From Campylobacteraceae bacterium (GTDB lineage: Bacteria; Campylobacterota; Campylobacteria; Campylobacterales; Campylobacteraceae), in the NCBI GenBank assembly GCA_012519705.1, contig JAAYPR010000049.1, positions 1-52,651 on the forward strand: a DNA stretch of 52,651 nt, written 5' to 3'. Below, piece by piece: positions 31,878 through 46,014 of this stretch. How positions within the stretch are numbered: position 1 is the first letter of the stretch; every line of letters starts with the position of its first letter. The position numbers and the translations under genes are program-made. The notes below the pieces were generated by a model. That model was not told where the DNA came from and searched no databases. It worked only from the letters and a program-made list of their open reading frames with translations.

Positions 31878-32152
31878 AAATCATCATAAAAGAGAGATTT
31901 AACGATGAGCTTAACGAGATACTAGCTTTCATCGCAAAAGATAGCTTAGATGAAGCAGTTAAATTTTATGACAATGTTTATGATAAAATTCACACTATCC
32001 CATTTATGCCAAATCGTTTCCCCAAAAACCGTATCGCAAACCAAGAAAATATCAGAAATTTACTATTTAAAGGTTATATAATTCCATTTGTCATTAGCGA
32101 CGAAGCCATAGAAATTTTAGGAATTTATAAGCACAATGTTTGGGAATATTAG
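31874..32152 (+). CDS. RelE/ParE-family toxin, TA pair 1
   Basis: This is a 92-residue basic protein of the RelE/ParE fold. It has an N-terminal helix pair (RFNDELNEILAFIAKDSLDEAVKFYDNVYDKI). A C-terminal sheet contains FKGYIIPFVI and ILGIYKHNVWEY, a signature shared with the toxins at 32408 and 38339. Whether it cleaves mRNA or poisons gyrase cannot be read from sequence. Confidence 0.8.
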   Translation: MKIIIKERFNDELNEILAFIAKDSLDEAVKFYDNVYDKIHTIPFMPNRFPKNRIANQENIRNLLFKGYIIPFVISDEAIEILGIYKHNVWEY

Positions 32153-38111: not shown

Positions 38112-38342
38112 ATGCAAACTATTACAATACAAGGAAGCGAAAATTTAATATCTCAAATAATAGCTATAAGCAAGGCATTAGCTCAAACTTCAAACCAAAA
38201 GCTAATCATACAGGATAGCTATGATGAGCTTGTAAAAGATTACGAGCAAAGAGTAAGAGAGATTGAAAACGGCACAGCTGAGTTAATAAGCCTTGATGAA
38301 TTTAAAAAAGAAATGAACGAGTTTATCAAGGCTTATCAGTGA
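38112..38342 (+). CDS. type II antitoxin, TA pair 3
   Basis: This 76-residue acidic protein begins MQTITIQGSENLISQIIAISKAL and ends with EQRVREIENGTAELISLDEFKKEM. That tail is nearly the same as the tail of the DinJ-type antitoxin at 42870. It overlaps its toxin by four bases. Confidence 0.75.
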   Translation: MQTITIQGSENLISQIIAISKALAQTSNQKLIIQDSYDELVKDYEQRVREIENGTAELISLDEFKKEMNEFIKAYQ

Positions 38343-38608
38343 TTTTTACAAGACGATTTCAAAACGAAATAAAAGCGATATTTGATTTTATCGCTGATGA
38401 TAGCTATGCAAGAGCAGTTAAATTTTATGATGAACTGATAAGCAAAATTGAAAACATAGAAAACAATCCTTTAGCTTATCCAAAATCAAAGACAGCAAAA
38501 AGAGACAATGCGAGGGATTTAATCTATAAGGGATATGTGATACCGTTTCTAATTGATGATGAAATTCACATACTAGGAATTTACAAGCATAACATCTGGA
38601 AGCCTTAA
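38339..38608 (+). CDS. RelE/ParE-family toxin, TA pair 3
   Basis: This 89-residue toxin has RFQNEIKAIFDFIADDSYARAVKFYDELISKI and the C-terminal YKGYVIPFLI...HILGIYKHNIWKP. It is closer to the toxin of pair 1 than to that of pair 2. Confidence 0.8.
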   Translation: MIFTRRFQNEIKAIFDFIADDSYARAVKFYDELISKIENIENNPLAYPKSKTAKRDNARDLIYKGYVIPFLIDDEIHILGIYKHNIWKP

Positions 38609-39341: not shown

Positions 39342-40124
39342 ATGAAATTAACATTAAATTTAGCCTTGAAGGCAGACGGCAAAGAGCTGATTTTAGACAA
39401 AAGAATCAAGCTTTTAAAAGAGATAGACAAAACAGGCTCTATCTTGCAAGCTGCCAAAAATGTCCCTATGAGTTATAAAACTGCTTGGGATAGCGTGGAC
39501 TTGATGAACAATCTCTCAAGTGAAGTTTTAGTTCATAGCAAAGCAGGCGGAAGGCAAGGTGGCGGAACGACGCTAAGTGAGTATGGCAAGAACCTAATCC
39601 TTGTCTATGACCAGATAAAAGAAGCTCAAAACTCTTTTTTAAAAACCTTGTCTGAATCTGTAAATTTAAATAGTGGCGAGATAGAAAATTTAGAAAGGAT
39701 AGCGATGCAAATAAGTGCGAGAAATGTTTTTACAGGAAAAGTTAAAAAGATAACTGAGGGCATGGTAAATGCGGAGGTTGTTTTAGAGCTAAAAGATGGC
39801 GTGGAAATTTCATCAGTTATAACTAAAAACTCAGTTGCAAACCTTGAGTTAGAGGTAGGAAAAGAGGCAAAAGCTATAATCAAAGCAACTTCTGTGATGT
39901 TTGCTACAAGTAGCGATATAGCAATAAGTGCTAGAAATATCATAGAAGGAAAAATCGTCAAAATAACTGATGGGCAGGTGAATGCCGAAGTTAGCATCGA
40001 CATAGGAAGTGAGCAGATTTTAACAGGAGTTGTGACTATAAACTCAGTTAAAAGGCTTGGCTTAAAAGAGGGGATGACTGCTTATGGCGTCATCAAATCA
40101 ACAGAAGTTATGATAGGTTTATAA
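39342..40124 (+). CDS. modE: ModE-type molybdate-responsive regulator
   Basis: This 260-residue protein has an N-terminal winged-helix domain. LLKEIDKTGSILQAAKNVPMSYKTAWDSVDLMNN is the typical ModE helix-turn-helix, followed by GRQGGGTTLSEYG. Two TOBE/Mop domains at about 125-190 and 196-260 bind molybdate or tungstate. It probably represses the mod genes just downstream when the oxyanion is plentiful. Unlike some Campylobacter regulators that lack TOBE domains, it keeps both. Confidence 0.92.
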   Translation: MKLTLNLALKADGKELILDKRIKLLKEIDKTGSILQAAKNVPMSYKTAWDSVDLMNNLSSEVLVHSKAGGRQGGGTTLSEYGKNLILVYDQIKEAQNSFLKTLSESVNLNSGEIENLERIAMQISARNVFTGKVKKITEGMVNAEVVLELKDGVEISSVITKNSVANLELEVGKEAKAIIKATSVMFATSSDIAISARNIIEGKIVKITDGQVNAEVSIDIGSEQILTGVVTINSVKRLGLKEGMTAYGVIKSTEVMIGL

Positions 40125-40142: not shown

Positions 40143-40880
40143 ATGAGAAAATTTATACTTCTACTAGCAAGTGCGTGTCTGATAAATGCAGCTGAGATTA
40201 CCGTAGCAGCAGCTGCAAATATCGGCTATGTTTTTGAAGAGTTAAAAACCGAGTTTTTAAAAGATAGACCAAAAGATGATGTTAAGGTAGTTTTAGGAAG
40301 TAGCGGAAAGCTAAGTTCGCAGATTCAAGCAGGTGCTGACTTTGCTATCTTTATGGCGGCAAATATGAACTTCGCTCAGGATCTTGCCGATAAAGGCTAT
40401 AGCGTAAGTGGTGATGCGAAAGTTTATACTAGAGGTGTTTTAATGATGTTTAGCCATGAAAAAAGAGATTTAAGCAAAGGCTTAGAGCTTTTAAAAGACA
40501 AATCTATAGTTAAAATTTCAGTAGCAAATACAAAAACCGCACCTTACGGCATAGCTGCAAAAGAAGCGTTTGAAAAAGCTGGGATTTACGCTGACATTGA
40601 GAGCAAACTTGTCTATGCACAGAGCATTTCAGGTGTTATGCCTCACGTTGTGACTGGTTCAGCTGAGATAGGCTTCATCCCAAAATCAGGGCTTGTAGGA
40701 AAAGATGAGTATAAAGAAAATGAAAACTATGTAGAGGTTGCAAGGGAGCTTTATACCCCGCTTGATCAAGGGATGATCATCCTAAAAGGGTATGAAAACA
40801 ATGCTCTTGCCAAAGAGTTTTATGAGTTTATCCAAAGCGATAGAGCAAAAGCTATATTTGCCGAATTTGGTTATGAGTAA
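40143..40880 (+). CDS. modA: molybdate-binding periplasmic protein ModA
   Basis: This 245-residue protein has a signal peptide (1-17). It follows the ModA pattern EITVAAAANIGYVFEEL, VLGSSGKLSSQIQAGADFAIFMAAN, and ends FAEFGYE. It captures molybdate or tungstate for ModBC. It lies 18 bases after modE in one operon. Confidence 0.92.
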   Translation: MRKFILLLASACLINAAEITVAAAANIGYVFEELKTEFLKDRPKDDVKVVLGSSGKLSSQIQAGADFAIFMAANMNFAQDLADKGYSVSGDAKVYTRGVLMMFSHEKRDLSKGLELLKDKSIVKISVANTKTAPYGIAAKEAFEKAGIYADIESKLVYAQSISGVMPHVVTGSAEIGFIPKSGLVGKDEYKENENYVEVARELYTPLDQGMIILKGYENNALAKEFYEFIQSDRAKAIFAEFGYE

Positions 40881-40883
40881 GCT

Positions 40884-41270
40884 ATGAATAAAATAAACGT
40901 AAAAGTAGTTGACGTAAAAGAGAGTGGTGATTTGTGCCACCTCTTTTTAAGTTCTGGTGAGCTAAATTTAGGGCTTGTGATGCTTGCAAATCACTTTAAA
41001 AAAGGCGATGAGATAGCTGTAGGGTTTAAGGAAAGTGCGGTTGCAGTTTCTAGAAATGGAAATGAAAACCTTAGCTACTCAAATCAAATTTTAGTAGAAA
41101 TTGAGAGTCTAGTAGAAGGTGAAATTTTAACAAAAGTAGTTGGCAAAGTTTTTGATGATGAGTTAAAAATCACCAGCGTTATAACGGCAAGTTCGGCTAA
41201 AAGGCTGGAGTTAAAAGTTGGTGATAAGGTCACCTTTTTAGTAAAAGCAACAGATATGTTTGTGGTGTGA
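40884..41270 (+). CDS. TOBE/Mop-domain protein
   Basis: This 128-residue cytoplasmic protein has a TOBE/Mop-like domain at about 70-128 (VEGEILTKVVGKVFDDELKITSVITASSAKRLELKVGDKVTFLVKATDMFV). A second, weaker half precedes it. Mop proteins bind molybdate for storage or sensing. Three bases separate it from modA. Confidence 0.8.
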   Translation: MNKINVKVVDVKESGDLCHLFLSSGELNLGLVMLANHFKKGDEIAVGFKESAVAVSRNGNENLSYSNQILVEIESLVEGEILTKVVGKVFDDELKITSVITASSAKRLELKVGDKVTFLVKATDMFVV

Positions 41271-41307: not shown

Positions 41308-41985
41308 ATGGAAAATATCGATTTTACCCCGTTTTATGTGTCATTTAAGTTAGCTTTCATCACAACCATAGTGCTTTTTTTCGTGGTTTTACCACTTGCT
41401 TGGAAGCTTAGTCAAAGTAGGAGCAAGTTTAAACCACTTATTCAAAGCATTTGTGCGTTGCCTTTAGTGTTGCCACCCACGGTTATGGGCTTTTATATCC
41501 TCTTTGCATTTTCAAAAAATTCCCCTGTGGGTGGGTTTTTAAAAAACACTTTTGGGATAGAGTTTGTTTTTACATTTGAAGGGCTTGTTTTTGCAAGCTG
41601 TATTTACTCGCTTCCGTTTATGTTTCAGCCCCTTCTTAGTGGGTTTGAAAGTCTTAATAAAAACATTTTAGAAGCCTCTTATCTAAGTGGCAAAAGTAAG
41701 TTTGAGACTCTTTTTAGAGTTGCACTGCCTAACATCAAGCCATCACTTTTAACAGCACTTGTGATAACTTTTGCTCACACGGTTGGTGAGTTTGGCATAG
41801 TCTTGATGGTAGGTGGAAGTATCGAGGGAGAGACGAAAGTTGCAAGTATAGCTATCTATGAATACGCAGAAATACTGGATTTTAAATCGGCTCATATTTA
41901 CAGCCTTATAATGCTTGTGATGAGTTTTGCGGTTTTGATAGTGGTGTATATGATAAATCAAAGGTTAAAAGTTGATAGAGTTTAG
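41308..41985 (+). CDS. modB: molybdate ABC transporter permease ModB
   Basis: This 225-residue membrane protein has five to six helices and the permease loop EASYLSGKSKFETLFRVALPNIKPSLL. It also has the ModB segment LPLVLPPTVMGFYILFAF. It overlaps modC by 14 bases. Confidence 0.93.
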   Translation: MENIDFTPFYVSFKLAFITTIVLFFVVLPLAWKLSQSRSKFKPLIQSICALPLVLPPTVMGFYILFAFSKNSPVGGFLKNTFGIEFVFTFEGLVFASCIYSLPFMFQPLLSGFESLNKNILEASYLSGKSKFETLFRVALPNIKPSLLTALVITFAHTVGEFGIVLMVGGSIEGETKVASIAIYEYAEILDFKSAHIYSLIMLVMSFAVLIVVYMINQRLKVDRV

Positions 41986-42835
41986 CTTTAAAAAAGAGCT
42001 TTTTGGCGTTAATAAAAACATGATGCTAGATGTGAGTGCCACTTTAGATGATGGCGTATTTCTAGCACTAAGCGGGGAGAGTGGAAGTGGTAAAACCACG
42101 CTTCTTAGGTGCCTAGCTGGACTTGAAAAAAGCGATGGGTTTATCAAAGTTGATGGAGAAGTGTGGCAAGATAAAAAGCTCTTTTTACCACCTCAAAAAA
42201 GGCGAATAGGCTTTGTTTTTCAAGACTACGCTTTGTTTGAAAACTTAACTGTAAAAGAGAATTTTCTGTTTGTGGAAAAAGATTTTGAACTTTGTGATAA
42301 GCTTTTAGATATGTTAGGGCTTGAGAGCCTAAAAGATAGATATCCTAGCAAGCTAAGTGGCGGACAAAAACAGCGTGTGGCTTTAGGTAGGGCGATGATG
42401 AGAAAGCCAAAACTTTTGCTACTTGATGAACCACTCTCTGCGCTTGATCCGAGCCTAAGGGCTAGACTTCAAGATGAGATAGCTAAAATCCACGACGCTT
42501 TTAAAACCATAACCATCCTAGTAAGTCACGACCCAAATGAAATTTATAAACTTGCAAACTATATGTATGTGATAAAGGATGGGAAATTTATAAGAAGTGG
42601 AACGCCAAAGGAGATTTTGCTAAAAACTAGTGGGAGCCAGAAATTCGCATTTACAGGAACACTGTTAAACTTAGAAAAAGTTGATACCATTTTTATAGCC
42701 ACAGTTTCCATCGGTCAGCAAATCACACAAATAGTTCTAGCTGATGATAGCGGGCTAAAAATCGGCGATGAAGTTAGTATAAATACTAAAGCGTTTAATT
42801 TAAATATCAGTAGAGTTTTAGATGAAAAGAAGTAA
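41972..42835 (+). CDS. modC: molybdate ABC transporter ATPase ModC
   Basis: This 287-residue ATPase has Walker A GESGSGKT (residues 35-42), signature LSGGQKQRVALGRAM and Walker B LLLLDEPLSALD. A C-terminal TOBE-like part (about 225-285) follows. The start is TTG inside modB. It is the only ATPase in the region and could also serve the second permease at 44065. Confidence 0.93.
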   Translation: MIEFSFKKELFGVNKNMMLDVSATLDDGVFLALSGESGSGKTTLLRCLAGLEKSDGFIKVDGEVWQDKKLFLPPQKRRIGFVFQDYALFENLTVKENFLFVEKDFELCDKLLDMLGLESLKDRYPSKLSGGQKQRVALGRAMMRKPKLLLLDEPLSALDPSLRARLQDEIAKIHDAFKTITILVSHDPNEIYKLANYMYVIKDGKFIRSGTPKEILLKTSGSQKFAFTGTLLNLEKVDTIFIATVSIGQQITQIVLADDSGLKIGDEVSINTKAFNLNISRVLDEKK

Positions 42836-42869: not shown

Positions 42870-43178
42870 ATGACAACATCAGTAAATTTTAAAATGGACA
42901 AAGAATTAAAAGAAGAGTTTGCAGAACTTTTGAAAAGCTTAGGTATGGATATGACAACGGCGTTTAATATTTACGCGAGAGCGGTTGTAAGAGAAAGAGG
43001 AATTCCTTTTGAGATAAAAGAAAATATCGCTGCTAAAAGACTAAGCGATGCAAAAGATGAGAATGAGCTAAGAGAAATTTTAGAAGCTAGGGTTAGGGAA
43101 ATTGAAAATGGCACGGTAAAAACTTACACTATGGATGAGTTTAAAGAAAAAATGGCTGAGAAAGGCTATGAGTGGTAA
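42870..43178 (+). CDS. RelB/DinJ-type antitoxin, orphan
   Basis: This is a 102-residue protein. Residues 1-60 (MTTSVNFKMDKELKEEFAELLKSLGMDMTTAFNIYARAVVRERGIPFE) are a RelB/DinJ ribbon-helix-helix domain. Residues 74-102 (ILEARVREIENGTVKTYTMDEFKEKM) instead match the tail of the unrelated antitoxin at 38112. No toxin gene follows; the next 200 bases are a structured non-coding spacer. It may be a regulator or protect against toxins from elsewhere in the genome. Confidence 0.82.
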   Translation: MTTSVNFKMDKELKEEFAELLKSLGMDMTTAFNIYARAVVRERGIPFEIKENIAAKRLSDAKDENELREILEARVREIENGTVKTYTMDEFKEKMAEKGYEW

Positions 43179-43379: not shown

Positions 43380-44075
43380 GTGAGAAAAATTTTAGTTTTA
43401 ATGTTGGCAGTTTTTGCCCTAAATGCAGCTGAGATGACGATAGCATCAGGTGCTGGGTATAAAAAGATGGTTCTTGAAATTTTAGAAAATTTTGAGAAAA
43501 AAGAGAGCATTGATGCAACTTTTGGAAATATGCGTCAAATCACAACTCAAGCTTTAAATCACGATATTTCGCTACTTATCGGAGATAAAACTTTCTTTGA
43601 CGGGGTTGAAGAGTTTAAAACAACGGTTAATCAAAAAGTTGGAAATGGAAAACTTGTTTTAGTTTACCCAAAAGAAAAAGTTGTGAAAAACTTAAAAGAT
43701 TTAGAAAAACCTGAGTTTAAAAAAATCGCTATGCCAGATGCTAAAAAGGCGATCTATGGCAAAGCCGCAACTCAGGCGATAGAGAGTGCAAATTTAGACA
43801 TCAAAAATAAGCTTATAGAGGTTGCAACAGTCCCACAAGCTGCAAGTTATGTGATAAGTGGCGAAGTGGACGCGGCGTTTATAAACTTAAGTGAGGCTCT
43901 AACTATAAAGGATAAAATAGGCGGTATTTTAGAAGTGGATCAGGGGCTTTATAGCGAGATAGAAATCGTTGTTTTAGAGCTTGAAAGCTGTGCAAAAAAG
44001 GGAATTTGCAAAGAGTTTTTAGACTATTTACAAACTGATAAAGTTAAGGAAATCGTAACAAAATATGGTCTATGA
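43380..44075 (+). CDS. ModA-like oxyanion-binding protein, second system
   Basis: This 231-residue protein has a signal peptide (1-17) and a ModA-type fold, ending VKEIVTKYGL. The ligand region (EMTIASGAGYKKMVLEILENFEKK, FGNMRQITTQ) differs from classical ModA: GAG replaces AAN, and there is no GSSG segment. It may bind tungstate or another oxyanion. GTG start after GGAG. It overlaps the permease by 11 bases. Confidence 0.82.
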   Translation: MRKILVLMLAVFALNAAEMTIASGAGYKKMVLEILENFEKKESIDATFGNMRQITTQALNHDISLLIGDKTFFDGVEEFKTTVNQKVGNGKLVLVYPKEKVVKNLKDLEKPEFKKIAMPDAKKAIYGKAATQAIESANLDIKNKLIEVATVPQAASYVISGEVDAAFINLSEALTIKDKIGGILEVDQGLYSEIEIVVLELESCAKKGICKEFLDYLQTDKVKEIVTKYGL

Positions 44076-44721
44076 GCCATTTATTTTAAGTGCTAAAATT
44101 CTAGCTATTTGTTTGGTTTTGTTCCTTGTTTTTGGAACTATGATAGCTAGTTTTTTAGCTCATACAAAATCAAAGTTTAAATTTTTAGTTGAGAGTTTGG
44201 TAACTTTGCCACTTATTTTCCCGCCCGTTGCGATAGGGTTTTTTCTACTGATGGGGCTTGGAAAAAGGGGATTTATAGGCTCGTTTTTTGCTGAGTTTGA
44301 TATATATTTTATATTTGAGTTTAACTCTTTAGTTATAGCTGGATTTATAGCAGGACTTCCACTTTACGTAAAACCAGTTCAAGCTAGTTTAGAACTTTTT
44401 CCTAAAAACATCAAAGAAGCCTCACTTCTAAGTGGTAAATCAAAGCTTGAAACTTTAGTTTTCATCATCCTTCCCTGCATTAAAAAAAGCATTCTCTCAG
44501 CCCTTATAATCGCACTAGGAAGGGCTTTAGGTGAGGTTGGGATAAGCCTGATTTTAGGTGGAAATATCATCGGTAAAACCGATACTTTATCACTTGCTAT
44601 TTATAACGCTGTTTATGACGGGGAGTATGAGTTGGCGATGAGACTTAGTGTGATTTTAGTTATAATTTCGCTTATTTTGTTTATAATTTTACATTTTTTA
44701 AATAAAAAAGAGAAAATTTAG
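44065..44721 (+). CDS. ModB-like permease, second system
   Basis: This 218-residue membrane protein has the ModB segment LPLIFPPVAIGFFLLMGLGKRGFIG and the ATPase-contact loop EASLLSGKSKLETLVFIILPCIKKSIL. That loop is nearly the same as the loop of ModB upstream. No ATPase gene follows. Confidence 0.87.
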   Translation: MVYEPFILSAKILAICLVLFLVFGTMIASFLAHTKSKFKFLVESLVTLPLIFPPVAIGFFLLMGLGKRGFIGSFFAEFDIYFIFEFNSLVIAGFIAGLPLYVKPVQASLELFPKNIKEASLLSGKSKLETLVFIILPCIKKSILSALIIALGRALGEVGISLILGGNIIGKTDTLSLAIYNAVYDGEYELAMRLSVILVIISLILFIILHFLNKKEKI

Positions 44722-44740
44722 ATATAAGATATAAAATAAC

Positions 44741-44777
44741 ACGTCATTGCGAGGAACGAAGTGACGAAGCAATCTAG
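44741..44777 (+). repeat. palindromic repeat copy N
   Basis: CGTCATTGCGAGGAACG...GTGACGAAGCAATCTAG is the GAGGAACGAAGTGACGAA core type. Confidence 0.8.
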
Positions 44778-44826
44778 CTTTTAAATTTTTAGAGTGAATT
44801 TTTGCTAATTTTTTATAATTTTAGAA

Positions 44827-44867
44827 CTAGATTGCCACGATTTGCTACGCAAATCTCGCAATGACGA
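44827..44867 (-). repeat. palindromic repeat copy O
   Basis: The core is GATTTGC-TAC-GCAAATC; it faces copy N. Confidence 0.8.
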
Positions 44868-44903
44868 TATAACGGTTGTTTAAATTTAGAAAAAAGGATA
44901 ATA

Positions 44904-45740
44904 ATGCTAGATAGTTATATAGAAAAATATATTGATGAAGATTTGCCTTATGGGGATTTAACCACAAGTTTGCAAGAAAATACTGATTTTAACGCAAAAT
45001 TAGAAATTTTTAGCAGAGATGAGATAGTGGTTAGCGGAAGTGAAATTTCAGCTAAGATTGGCGAAAAGCTAGGCTGTAAGGCGGAGATTTTTTTAAAAAG
45101 TCGCAAGCTAGCTAAAAAGGGCGATTTGATTTTAACTCTAACTGGAAGCTATGAAAACATCCATAAAGCGTGGAAATTATCACAAGTTTTTTTAGAGCAT
45201 GCAAGTGGAATTTCAACTTATACTTATAAGATGCTACAGAGCGTGCGAGAAGTTAGCCAAAAATGCCAAATTTTAGGTACTAGAAAGACATTTCCTTTTG
45301 CTAAAAAACTCTGTTTAAAAGCCCTAAGTGACGGTGGTGGATTTGCTCATAGACTAAATTTAAGCGATAGCGTGCTGTTTTTTGATAAACATAGAATTGT
45401 TTATGAAAATGACGCTGAGTTTTACAGGGAAATTTCTAAGTTTAAAACCAAACTACCTGAAAAAAAGATAGCCGTTGAGGCTCTAAGCTTAGAAGATGCT
45501 CTAAATTTGATGAAATACGGAGCAGACACTATCCAGCTTGATAAGATGAGTTTGGAAGAGACTGAAAAAGTAGTTGAGTTTAGGGATGAAAACTATAAAA
45601 GTGTCATAGTTCTTTCAGCTGGTGGGATAAATTTAAACAACGCAAAAGAGTATGCAAAACTAGGAATTGATGGCATCGTAACAAGTGCGATGTACTCAGC
45701 TAAGATGGCAGATGTGGGAGCTAGGATTTTTAGAGTTTAA
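44904..45740 (+). CDS. modD: ModD, quinolinate phosphoribosyltransferase-like protein
   Basis: This 278-residue protein has the nicotinate/quinolinate phosphoribosyltransferase fold. It starts MLDSYIEKYIDEDLPYGDLTTSL, then GTRKTFPFAKKLCLKALSDGGGFAHRLNLSDSVLFF and ADTIQLDKMSLEE. The FPFAKKL and HRLNLSDSVL form is that of ModD, found in molybdenum transport operons, rather than NadC. The reaction it performs there is not established. The mod genes upstream support ModD over NadC. Confidence 0.82.
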   Translation: MLDSYIEKYIDEDLPYGDLTTSLQENTDFNAKLEIFSRDEIVVSGSEISAKIGEKLGCKAEIFLKSRKLAKKGDLILTLTGSYENIHKAWKLSQVFLEHASGISTYTYKMLQSVREVSQKCQILGTRKTFPFAKKLCLKALSDGGGFAHRLNLSDSVLFFDKHRIVYENDAEFYREISKFKTKLPEKKIAVEALSLEDALNLMKYGADTIQLDKMSLEETEKVVEFRDENYKSVIVLSAGGINLNNAKEYAKLGIDGIVTSAMYSAKMADVGARIFRV

Positions 45741-45915: not shown

Positions 45916-45953
45916 CTGGTCATTGCGAGGAGCGAAGTGACGAAGCAATCTAG
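45916..45953 (+). repeat. palindromic repeat copy Q
   Basis: The core is the GAGGAGCGAAGTGACGAA type, close to copy N. Confidence 0.8.
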
Positions 45954-46014
45954 ATGTTAAATTTTAAAACTAAATTTTAGCAAATTTGGTTTTAAAGTGT
46001 TTATAAATTCAAGG

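Follow-up and report, generated by a model that had tools for sequence, protein, structure and literature searches.

A second ModA/ModB-like pair without its own ATPase probably shares ModC in a Campylobacteraceae molybdate operon

A second binding protein and permease at the molybdate locus

The stretch analysed here (the window) is the whole 52,651-nucleotide (nt) contig JAAYPR010000049.1 of the Campylobacteraceae assembly GCA_012519705.1. Its molybdate operon contains a second ModA-like binding protein (BP2) and a second ModB-like permease (PERM2). Together, BP2 and PERM2 probably make up a second type-I ATP-binding cassette (ABC) importer, as its binding protein and its permease, which would draw on ModC, the ATPase of the molybdate importer encoded next to it. 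The first-pass annotation, made from the window alone, described a ModA/ModB-like pair that lacks its own ATPase and adjoins ModD. This is borne out by the open reading frames (ORFs), which place the pair between modC and modD. No ATPase gene lies within 43380–45740, the nearest being modC. The genes follow each other in this order:

39342–40124, + strand: modE, the operon's first gene, with a ModE repressor domain and two TOBE/Mop domains (TIGR00637, 99.1 bits, cut-off 98.5; TIGR00638, 140.3 bits)
40143–40880, + strand: modA, canonical molybdate-binding protein (TIGR01256, 171.6 bits; alignment to 7t4z)
40884–41270, + strand: mop-like gene with one TOBE domain (PF03459, 39.7 bits)
41308–41985, + strand: modB, first permease, coupling loop EASYLSGKSKFETL (TIGR02141, 225.7 bits, cut-off 182.6)
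41972–42835, + strand: modC, sole ATPase of the locus (PF00005, 114.2 bits; TIGR02142, 200.4 bits)
42870–43178, + strand: RelB/DinJ-like antitoxin gene (TIGR02384, 58.7 bits, cut-off 45.65)
43380–44075, + strand: BP2, ModA-like periplasmic binding protein, 231 residues, GTG start (TIGR01256, 88.1 bits; AlphaFold2 model, predicted local distance difference test score 91.5)
44065–44721, + strand: PERM2, ModB-like permease, 218 residues, coupling loop EASLLSGKSKLETL (TIGR02141, 178.3 bits)
44904–45740, + strand: modD, quinolinate-phosphoribosyltransferase-like enzyme (TIGR01334, 204.5 bits, cut-off 178.85)

The ORFs of BP2 and PERM2 overlap by 11 nt. BP2 exceeds the modA cut-off of TIGR01256 (62.5 bits), with an alignment limited to residues 61–230, and PERM2 falls just under the modB cut-off of TIGR02141; relatives score 172.9 (L184), 163.1 (L188) and 189.6 bits (L205) with the same model. 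L numbers denote fetched loci, and G numbers the 153 genomes of the family. The best NCBIfam match of ModC is TIGR02142, over residues 16–219, under its equivalog cut-off of 285 bits.

The coupling loops of PERM2 and ModB vary together

The EAA loop of a permease is its ATPase-coupling helix. The loops of PERM2 and ModB had been called nearly the same in the first-pass annotation, and 12 of their 14 positions are indeed identical in the window, compared to an identity of about 0.33–0.36 over the rest of the proteins. The fetched loci provided 36 PERM2 and 41 ModB sequences of more than 200 residues, with both permeases available from 34 genomes in nine hand-made groups. Over the whole protein, the identity between PERM2 and ModB is 0.345 within the same genome and 0.339 between groups. 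The 12-residue segments at positions 112–125, which correspond to the EAA coupling loop, are 0.53–0.62 identical within the same genome versus 0.41–0.51 between groups. This excess of 0.12 ranks 1–3 of 207 (z about 3.6) and is reached in none of 2000 group permutations. In the subset of 23 genomes with TupB, the permease of the TupABC importer, the loop segments rank 1–2 (p 0.0015–0.0020). With TupB as the control the excess is negative against both ModB and PERM2 (rank 195 of 207), although TupB is so distant that this control is weak. One loop position illustrates the pattern: both permeases carry Ser there in three groups (those of the window, G134 and G152) and Leu in five others; G014 has Cys and Leu.

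Within genomes carrying one ModC, loop identity is 0.62 where the pair is linked to the operon (18 cases) and 0.75 where it is unlinked (26 cases), compared to 0.39 in 10 loci from outside the family; over the rest of the protein the values are 0.36, 0.33 and 0.34, respectively. Two ModC-like genes are visible in five of the outside loci (L182, L197, L210, L225 and L235), where the mean loop identity is 0.35. In the other five, a separate ATPase was assumed or partly seen. The Azotobacter loops read EAARVLGK in PERM2 and EVASTLRA in ModB.

A quick tree of 71 sequences places PERM2 and ModB on opposite sides of one branch, with Shimodaira–Hasegawa-like approximate likelihood ratio (SH-aLRT) supports of 81 and 77. 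Judged by their sequences, the two are old, separate paralogues. Because they split on the tree, a recent duplication fails to explain why their loops are alike. Recent gene conversion was also considered as a cause and set aside: where the residues are identical, their codons agree in 180 of 382 cases in the loop and in 870 of 2174 elsewhere, with no clear excess. The co-variation of the loops points to ModC, rather than TupC, as the ATPase of PERM2. Compared genome by genome, coupling loops offer a simple sequence test for which ATPase an orphan permease uses.

The genome was searched for another ATPase

The genome of the window contains 41 matches to PF00005 and 19 permease matches to PF00528. 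We read 38 of the 41 PF00005 matches in context, those of the window included; the other three (C7:6389, C21:14199 and C17:95922) are all under the Pfam cut-off. ATPase types were assigned mostly by eye and from membrane-segment counts, and six by NCBIfam. The first-pass annotation had suggested searching for a dedicated, unlinked ATPase. No unpaired importer-type ATPase was found among the 38 matches read, and the importer-type ATPases sit beside a permease of their own. The ATPases that lack an adjoining permease are LolD-like (TIGR02211 is the best match, below cut-off) and LptB-like (by eye). Each of the 19 PF00528 permeases has an ATPase gene nearby, which in the window is common to two permeases, and PERM2 is the sole PF00528 permease of the genome without its own adjoining ATPase gene.

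The genome also encodes a complete TupABC, with all three components over their NCBIfam cut-offs. PERM2 could therefore use TupC, or another ATPase of the genome, instead of ModC. TupB is distantly related to PERM2, which reaches 55.1 bits against a TupB cut-off of 320, and the two exporter-like ATPases named above have no adjoining permease. However, a TupB match is missing in 7 of 30 PERM2 genomes, so TupC is not the general partner of PERM2. The TupB loop is unlike the PERM2 loop and does not co-vary with it, and the importer-type ATPases that were read are already paired. We consider an ATPase other than ModC very improbable.

Distribution of the pair in the family

The 153 genomes of the family were searched with thresholds of E<1e-30 for BP2 (partial rows counted), E<=1e-50 for PERM2, E<=1e-40 for ModD and E<=1e-55 for ModC. 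Matches were obtained in 47 (BP2), 45 (PERM2), 65 (ModD) and 132 genomes (ModC). All 45 PERM2 genomes contain exactly one ModC match, whether the pair is linked to modC or not. The order modE-modA-mop-modB-modC-BP2-PERM2-modD recurs in five family genomes beyond the window (G077, G065, G071, G134 and G152), and BP2 follows closely behind modC in the linked-operon relatives. The order from modE to PERM2 is likewise present in named Arcobacteraceae and Sulfurospirillaceae. G150 and G151 have the permuted order modE-modA-BP2-PERM2-modD-mop-modB-modC, which likewise combines two sets of binding protein and permease with a single ModC.

BP2-PERM2 stand alone in genera g2 and g3, often near dcd-like and biotin carboxylase-like genes (named by eye), and no cognate ATPase was seen beside these unlinked pairs. 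In G068 the pair adjoins modD without modC. Sharing of ModC by the unlinked pairs of g2, g3 and G068 would have to act in trans. A 216-residue ATPase encoded upstream of BP2 in L045, L050 and L054 was rejected as a cognate partner; it follows genes resembling an energy-coupling factor nickel or cobalt system (by eye), and the other relatives viewed do not have it next to the pair.

A 23-base-pair (bp), AT-rich and loosely palindromic element, about TATATAAGAnTATATTTTATAna, lies some 30–40 bp upstream of unlinked BP2 genes (L036–L045, L048, L050–L057 and L059). A matrix built from 12 of the elements was scanned over 863 kb of overlapping relatives. Its 20 best matches (21–30 bits) without exception precede BP2 or the broken form of this gene, the next best scores 18.4 bits, and one match of 17.2 bits precedes modE of G068. 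The element was found in neither G014 nor the window. A pattern for an E. coli-like ModE box had no match within 400 bp upstream of BP2, nor upstream of modE itself, so it is uninformative.

It could be proposed that the pair has no function and is decaying after a duplication. Both BP2 and PERM2 are broken in G131 (L046), where the operon order is the same and modD is open. PERM2 is split in G058, and the BP2 rows of G039 and G057 each have one internal stop. The remaining PERM2 rows listed are open frames, save for a stop at the end in G065. Given also the spread of the pair over several phyla and the conserved element upstream of unlinked BP2 genes, we regard decay as highly improbable. G077 (L031) shows the converse of G131: a stop interrupts modD, and the frames of BP2 and PERM2 are intact.

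The pair outside the family

A wider search of genome contigs matched 227 stretches, 133 of which were confirmed; the following counts refer to the best 80. PERM2 follows BP2 in 78 of the 80 loci. A ModC-like gene immediately precedes the pair in 25, counting the Campylobacterota operons, and immediately follows it in 4, and 38 loci contain no ModC-like gene over 140 bits. ModD is present in 33 loci, in 20 of them immediately after PERM2. In Desulfovibrio-type, Azonexus and Chromatiaceae loci an ATPase is located beside the pair, in groups apart from the Campylobacterota ModC. In Azotobacter vinelandii CA (L184), some 2.7 kb separate BP2-PERM2 from modE-modA-modB; a ModC-like gene occupies this interval on the opposite strand, and no ModD was found in this genome at E<=1e-30.

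The Syntrophorhabdus locus L205 has the order mop-modC-BP2-PERM2 and contains neither modA nor modB in its 12.7 kb; its ModC groups with the ModC of two family genomes. This locus bears on another arrangement, in which PERM2 and ModB form mixed dimers over a ModC dimer and a single complex takes cargo from both ModA and BP2. Co-encoding of the two permeases and the likeness of their coupling loops would fit such a complex. In L205, L187, L188, L190 and L191, however, the pair occurs with an ATPase and without a ModB in range, and PERM2 can presumably function there without ModB. The low identity of the two permeases outside the loop also argues against mixed dimers, which we find improbable.

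Several observations weigh against the assignment of ModC to PERM2. The draft assembly consists of 52 contigs with a completeness of 99.2%, and it is possible that an ATPase gene is missing from it; the reading in context covered 38 of the 41 PF00005 matches. The SH-aLRT support for the separation of PERM2 from ModB is modest. The loop seems to have switched independently only a few times, perhaps two or three, and the permutation counts therefore overstate independence, and the TupB control has little power due to the distance of TupB. BP2-PERM2 can be lost, as seen in G131 and G058. Finally, the pair does have an adjoining ATPase in Desulfovibrio, Azonexus and Chromatiaceae; sharing is therefore a trait of the lineage. 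We nevertheless regard it as very likely that PERM2 shares ModC.

The binding site of BP2 and its cargo

The best fold matches of the BP2 model in the PDB are ModA proteins (Z 26.0 for 7t50); Foldseek was also run. According to PMC9171197, Pseudomonas aeruginosa ModA contacts the oxyanion through Asn33, Thr60, Tyr141 and Ile168; Asn33 and Thr60 bind also through their main-chain NH groups, and the contact residues vary among true ModAs. In sequence alignments, the ModA of the window has Asn, Ser, Tyr and Ile at these positions. In BP2, the lobe-A contacts are replaced by Gly26 (for Asn33, in 24 of 24 rows) and Met51 (for Thr60; Met, Ile, Leu or Pro in 24 of 24). At the lobe-B positions it has Tyr126 (for Tyr141, 24 of 24) and Val151 (for Ile168, 23 of 24). 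Lys28 and Asp69 of BP2 are likewise invariant. The first-pass annotation had noted a difference between BP2 and ModA at the ligand segments, and two of the four known contact positions do differ. From the alignment, lobe B looks like an anion site and lobe A appears rebuilt, although main-chain contacts could still hold an oxyanion.

The pair may be a second molybdate or tungstate importer of other affinity or preference, a reading that is compatible with the sharing of ModC. The ModA fold of BP2, the Tyr and Val at its lobe-B contacts and the modE gene at the head of the operon agree with it, as do the main-chain binding and the variation of contacts among ModAs described in PMC9171197. Table 6 of PMC545781 also lists, for D. 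desulfuricans, a modAB2 operon that lacks modC and has a predicted ModE-type site; it may or may not be of the BP2 type. Against such an importer stand the invariant Gly26 in place of Asn33 and the Met, Ile, Leu or Pro in place of Thr60, as well as the presence of TupABC. We rate such an importer as possible but rather doubtful.

The first-pass annotation had suggested that one ModC may serve both sets, perhaps with molybdate and tungstate divided between them. At the level of sequence, the sharing is supported by the single ModC and the loop co-variation. The division is not supported: the genome encodes TupABC, and the side chains through which lobe A of ModA makes its contacts are absent from BP2. 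We disfavour it on these grounds, although the 7 of 30 PERM2 genomes without a TupB match and the main-chain contacts that BP2 may retain leave it some room. BP2 retains the lobe-B contacts of ModA but has lost the side chains of lobe A, and importers for molybdate and tungstate already exist with ModA and TupA. In our view, another anion, or molybdenum or tungsten in a form other than the bare oxyanion, is therefore a likelier cargo than plain molybdate.

ModD and its association with PERM2

ModD is over the cut-off of TIGR01334, while its score of 154 bits with the nadC model TIGR00078 is below the cut-off of 198.4. In the family, ModD is present in 44 of 45 PERM2 genomes (it is absent from G014, which is 82% complete), compared to 21 of 108 genomes without PERM2, a contrast that is inflated by shared ancestry. 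In genus g3 the two genes can lie far apart, for example at 156,872 and 1,200,792 in G020. Here modD is often behind a heavy-metal P-type ATPase gene (TIGR01525, 481 bits; L120–L124, L132–L135, L138–L139); further neighbours are sometimes a sodium:alanine symporter gene, and small proteins, four of which were tested and had no Pfam match. Outside the family, 33 genomes lack ModD in the locus; 18 of them have it elsewhere and 15 have none at E<=1e-30. A general requirement of PERM2 for ModD was therefore rejected.

Functional residues of quinolinate phosphoribosyltransferase include R105, R139, K140, H161, R162, K172, E201 and D222. All 57 ModD rows preserve the equivalents of R139, K140, H161, R162 and E201, and all 57 have Phe where K172 would be; R105 is replaced by Lys in 50 of the 57. 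The genome of the window has no match to NadA (PF02445) at E<=1e-10 and no NadC over cut-off. The same holds for 20 of the 26 genomes searched (the window's included), of which 13 contain a ModD-type match, in one case with a stop and in another partial at a contig end. The 6 genomes with NadA also have a separate NadC over cut-off in addition to ModD. Given the Phe at K172, the missed NadC cut-off and the lack of NadA and a true NadC, ModD is unlikely to be NadC, or an enzyme of nicotinamide adenine dinucleotide (NAD) synthesis from quinolinate. For the reaction of ModD, noted as unknown at first pass, the NAD pathway is now disfavoured. The association of PERM2 with ModD in the family, in cells without NadA, provides a concrete handle on its role.

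Proposed mechanism

We infer from these sequences that BP2 would capture an anionic cargo in the periplasm and dock onto a PERM2 dimer. PERM2 would couple to ModC via an EAA loop that has stayed compatible with the ModB loop, and the imported cargo would be used in a process involving ModD. More speculatively, BP2-PERM2 and ModD could form a separate, ModC-driven route by which molybdenum or tungsten is acquired in another form than the bare oxyanion, e.g. organically complexed or thiolated. ModD, as a phosphoribosyltransferase with a pocket that has ceased to accommodate quinolinate, would process or recycle the organic part. We hold this specific version to be unlikely. If true, two importers on one engine and an orphan enzyme would form an unrecognised pathway spread over several phyla.

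Other features of the window

Between modC and BP2, the window contains the RelB/DinJ-like antitoxin gene, which is not thought to be part of the importer, and a GC-rich stretch. Neither is present at this place in the five linked-operon relatives (L031–L035). No toxin gene was noticed beside the antitoxin gene. A ParE-toxin-like ORF (38339–38608; PF05016, 48.2 bits) is located 4.3 kb upstream, and repeats at 31896 and 32427 that resemble its start may be further copies. A dispersed repeat with the core ATTGCGAGGANCGAAGTGACGAAGCAATCTAG flanks modD on both sides, at 44743–44811 (between PERM2 and modD) and 45919–45987. It has 16 copies in the genome at up to 2 mismatches, compared to 0 for the reversed control.

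Comparison with known systems

MsmX and MsiK are multitask ATPases of type-I sugar importers, in which one ATPase powers several permeases. FhuC is a shared ATPase in heme uptake of S. aureus (PMC10147376). BP2-PERM2 resembles the permeases of these systems in having no cognate ATPase. The known cases concern sugars or siderophores and heme and are experimentally proven, whereas the pair described here is of the metal-oxyanion type, is encoded together with the set it would share ModC with and is known from sequence evidence. The pair belongs to a widespread branch. In the literature searched, with most subscription journals outside coverage, we found neither a description of this branch nor a molybdate-type case of the ATPase sharing known for sugar and siderophore/heme importers.

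TupABC (NF041772–NF041774) is also an oxyanion ABC importer of the same genome, but has its own ATPase and a different loop. At E<=0.01 BP2 did not match TupA, and PERM2 is under the WtpB cut-off as well (NF040839, 77.8 bits, cut-off 340). PEB3 of Campylobacter jejuni has a fold related to BP2 (profile match E 9.3e-9, Z about 21), but is a complex with an organic phosphate, L-phospholactate, according to its PDB title.

ModABC (TIGR01256, TIGR02141 and TIGR02142) has several points in common with the pair: the fold of BP2, the permease family of PERM2, the operon and probably the ATPase. BP2-PERM2 differs from it in lacking an ATPase of its own, in a permease that is under the modB cut-off and forms a separate group, and in a binding protein without two of the four contact residues of P. 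aeruginosa ModA.

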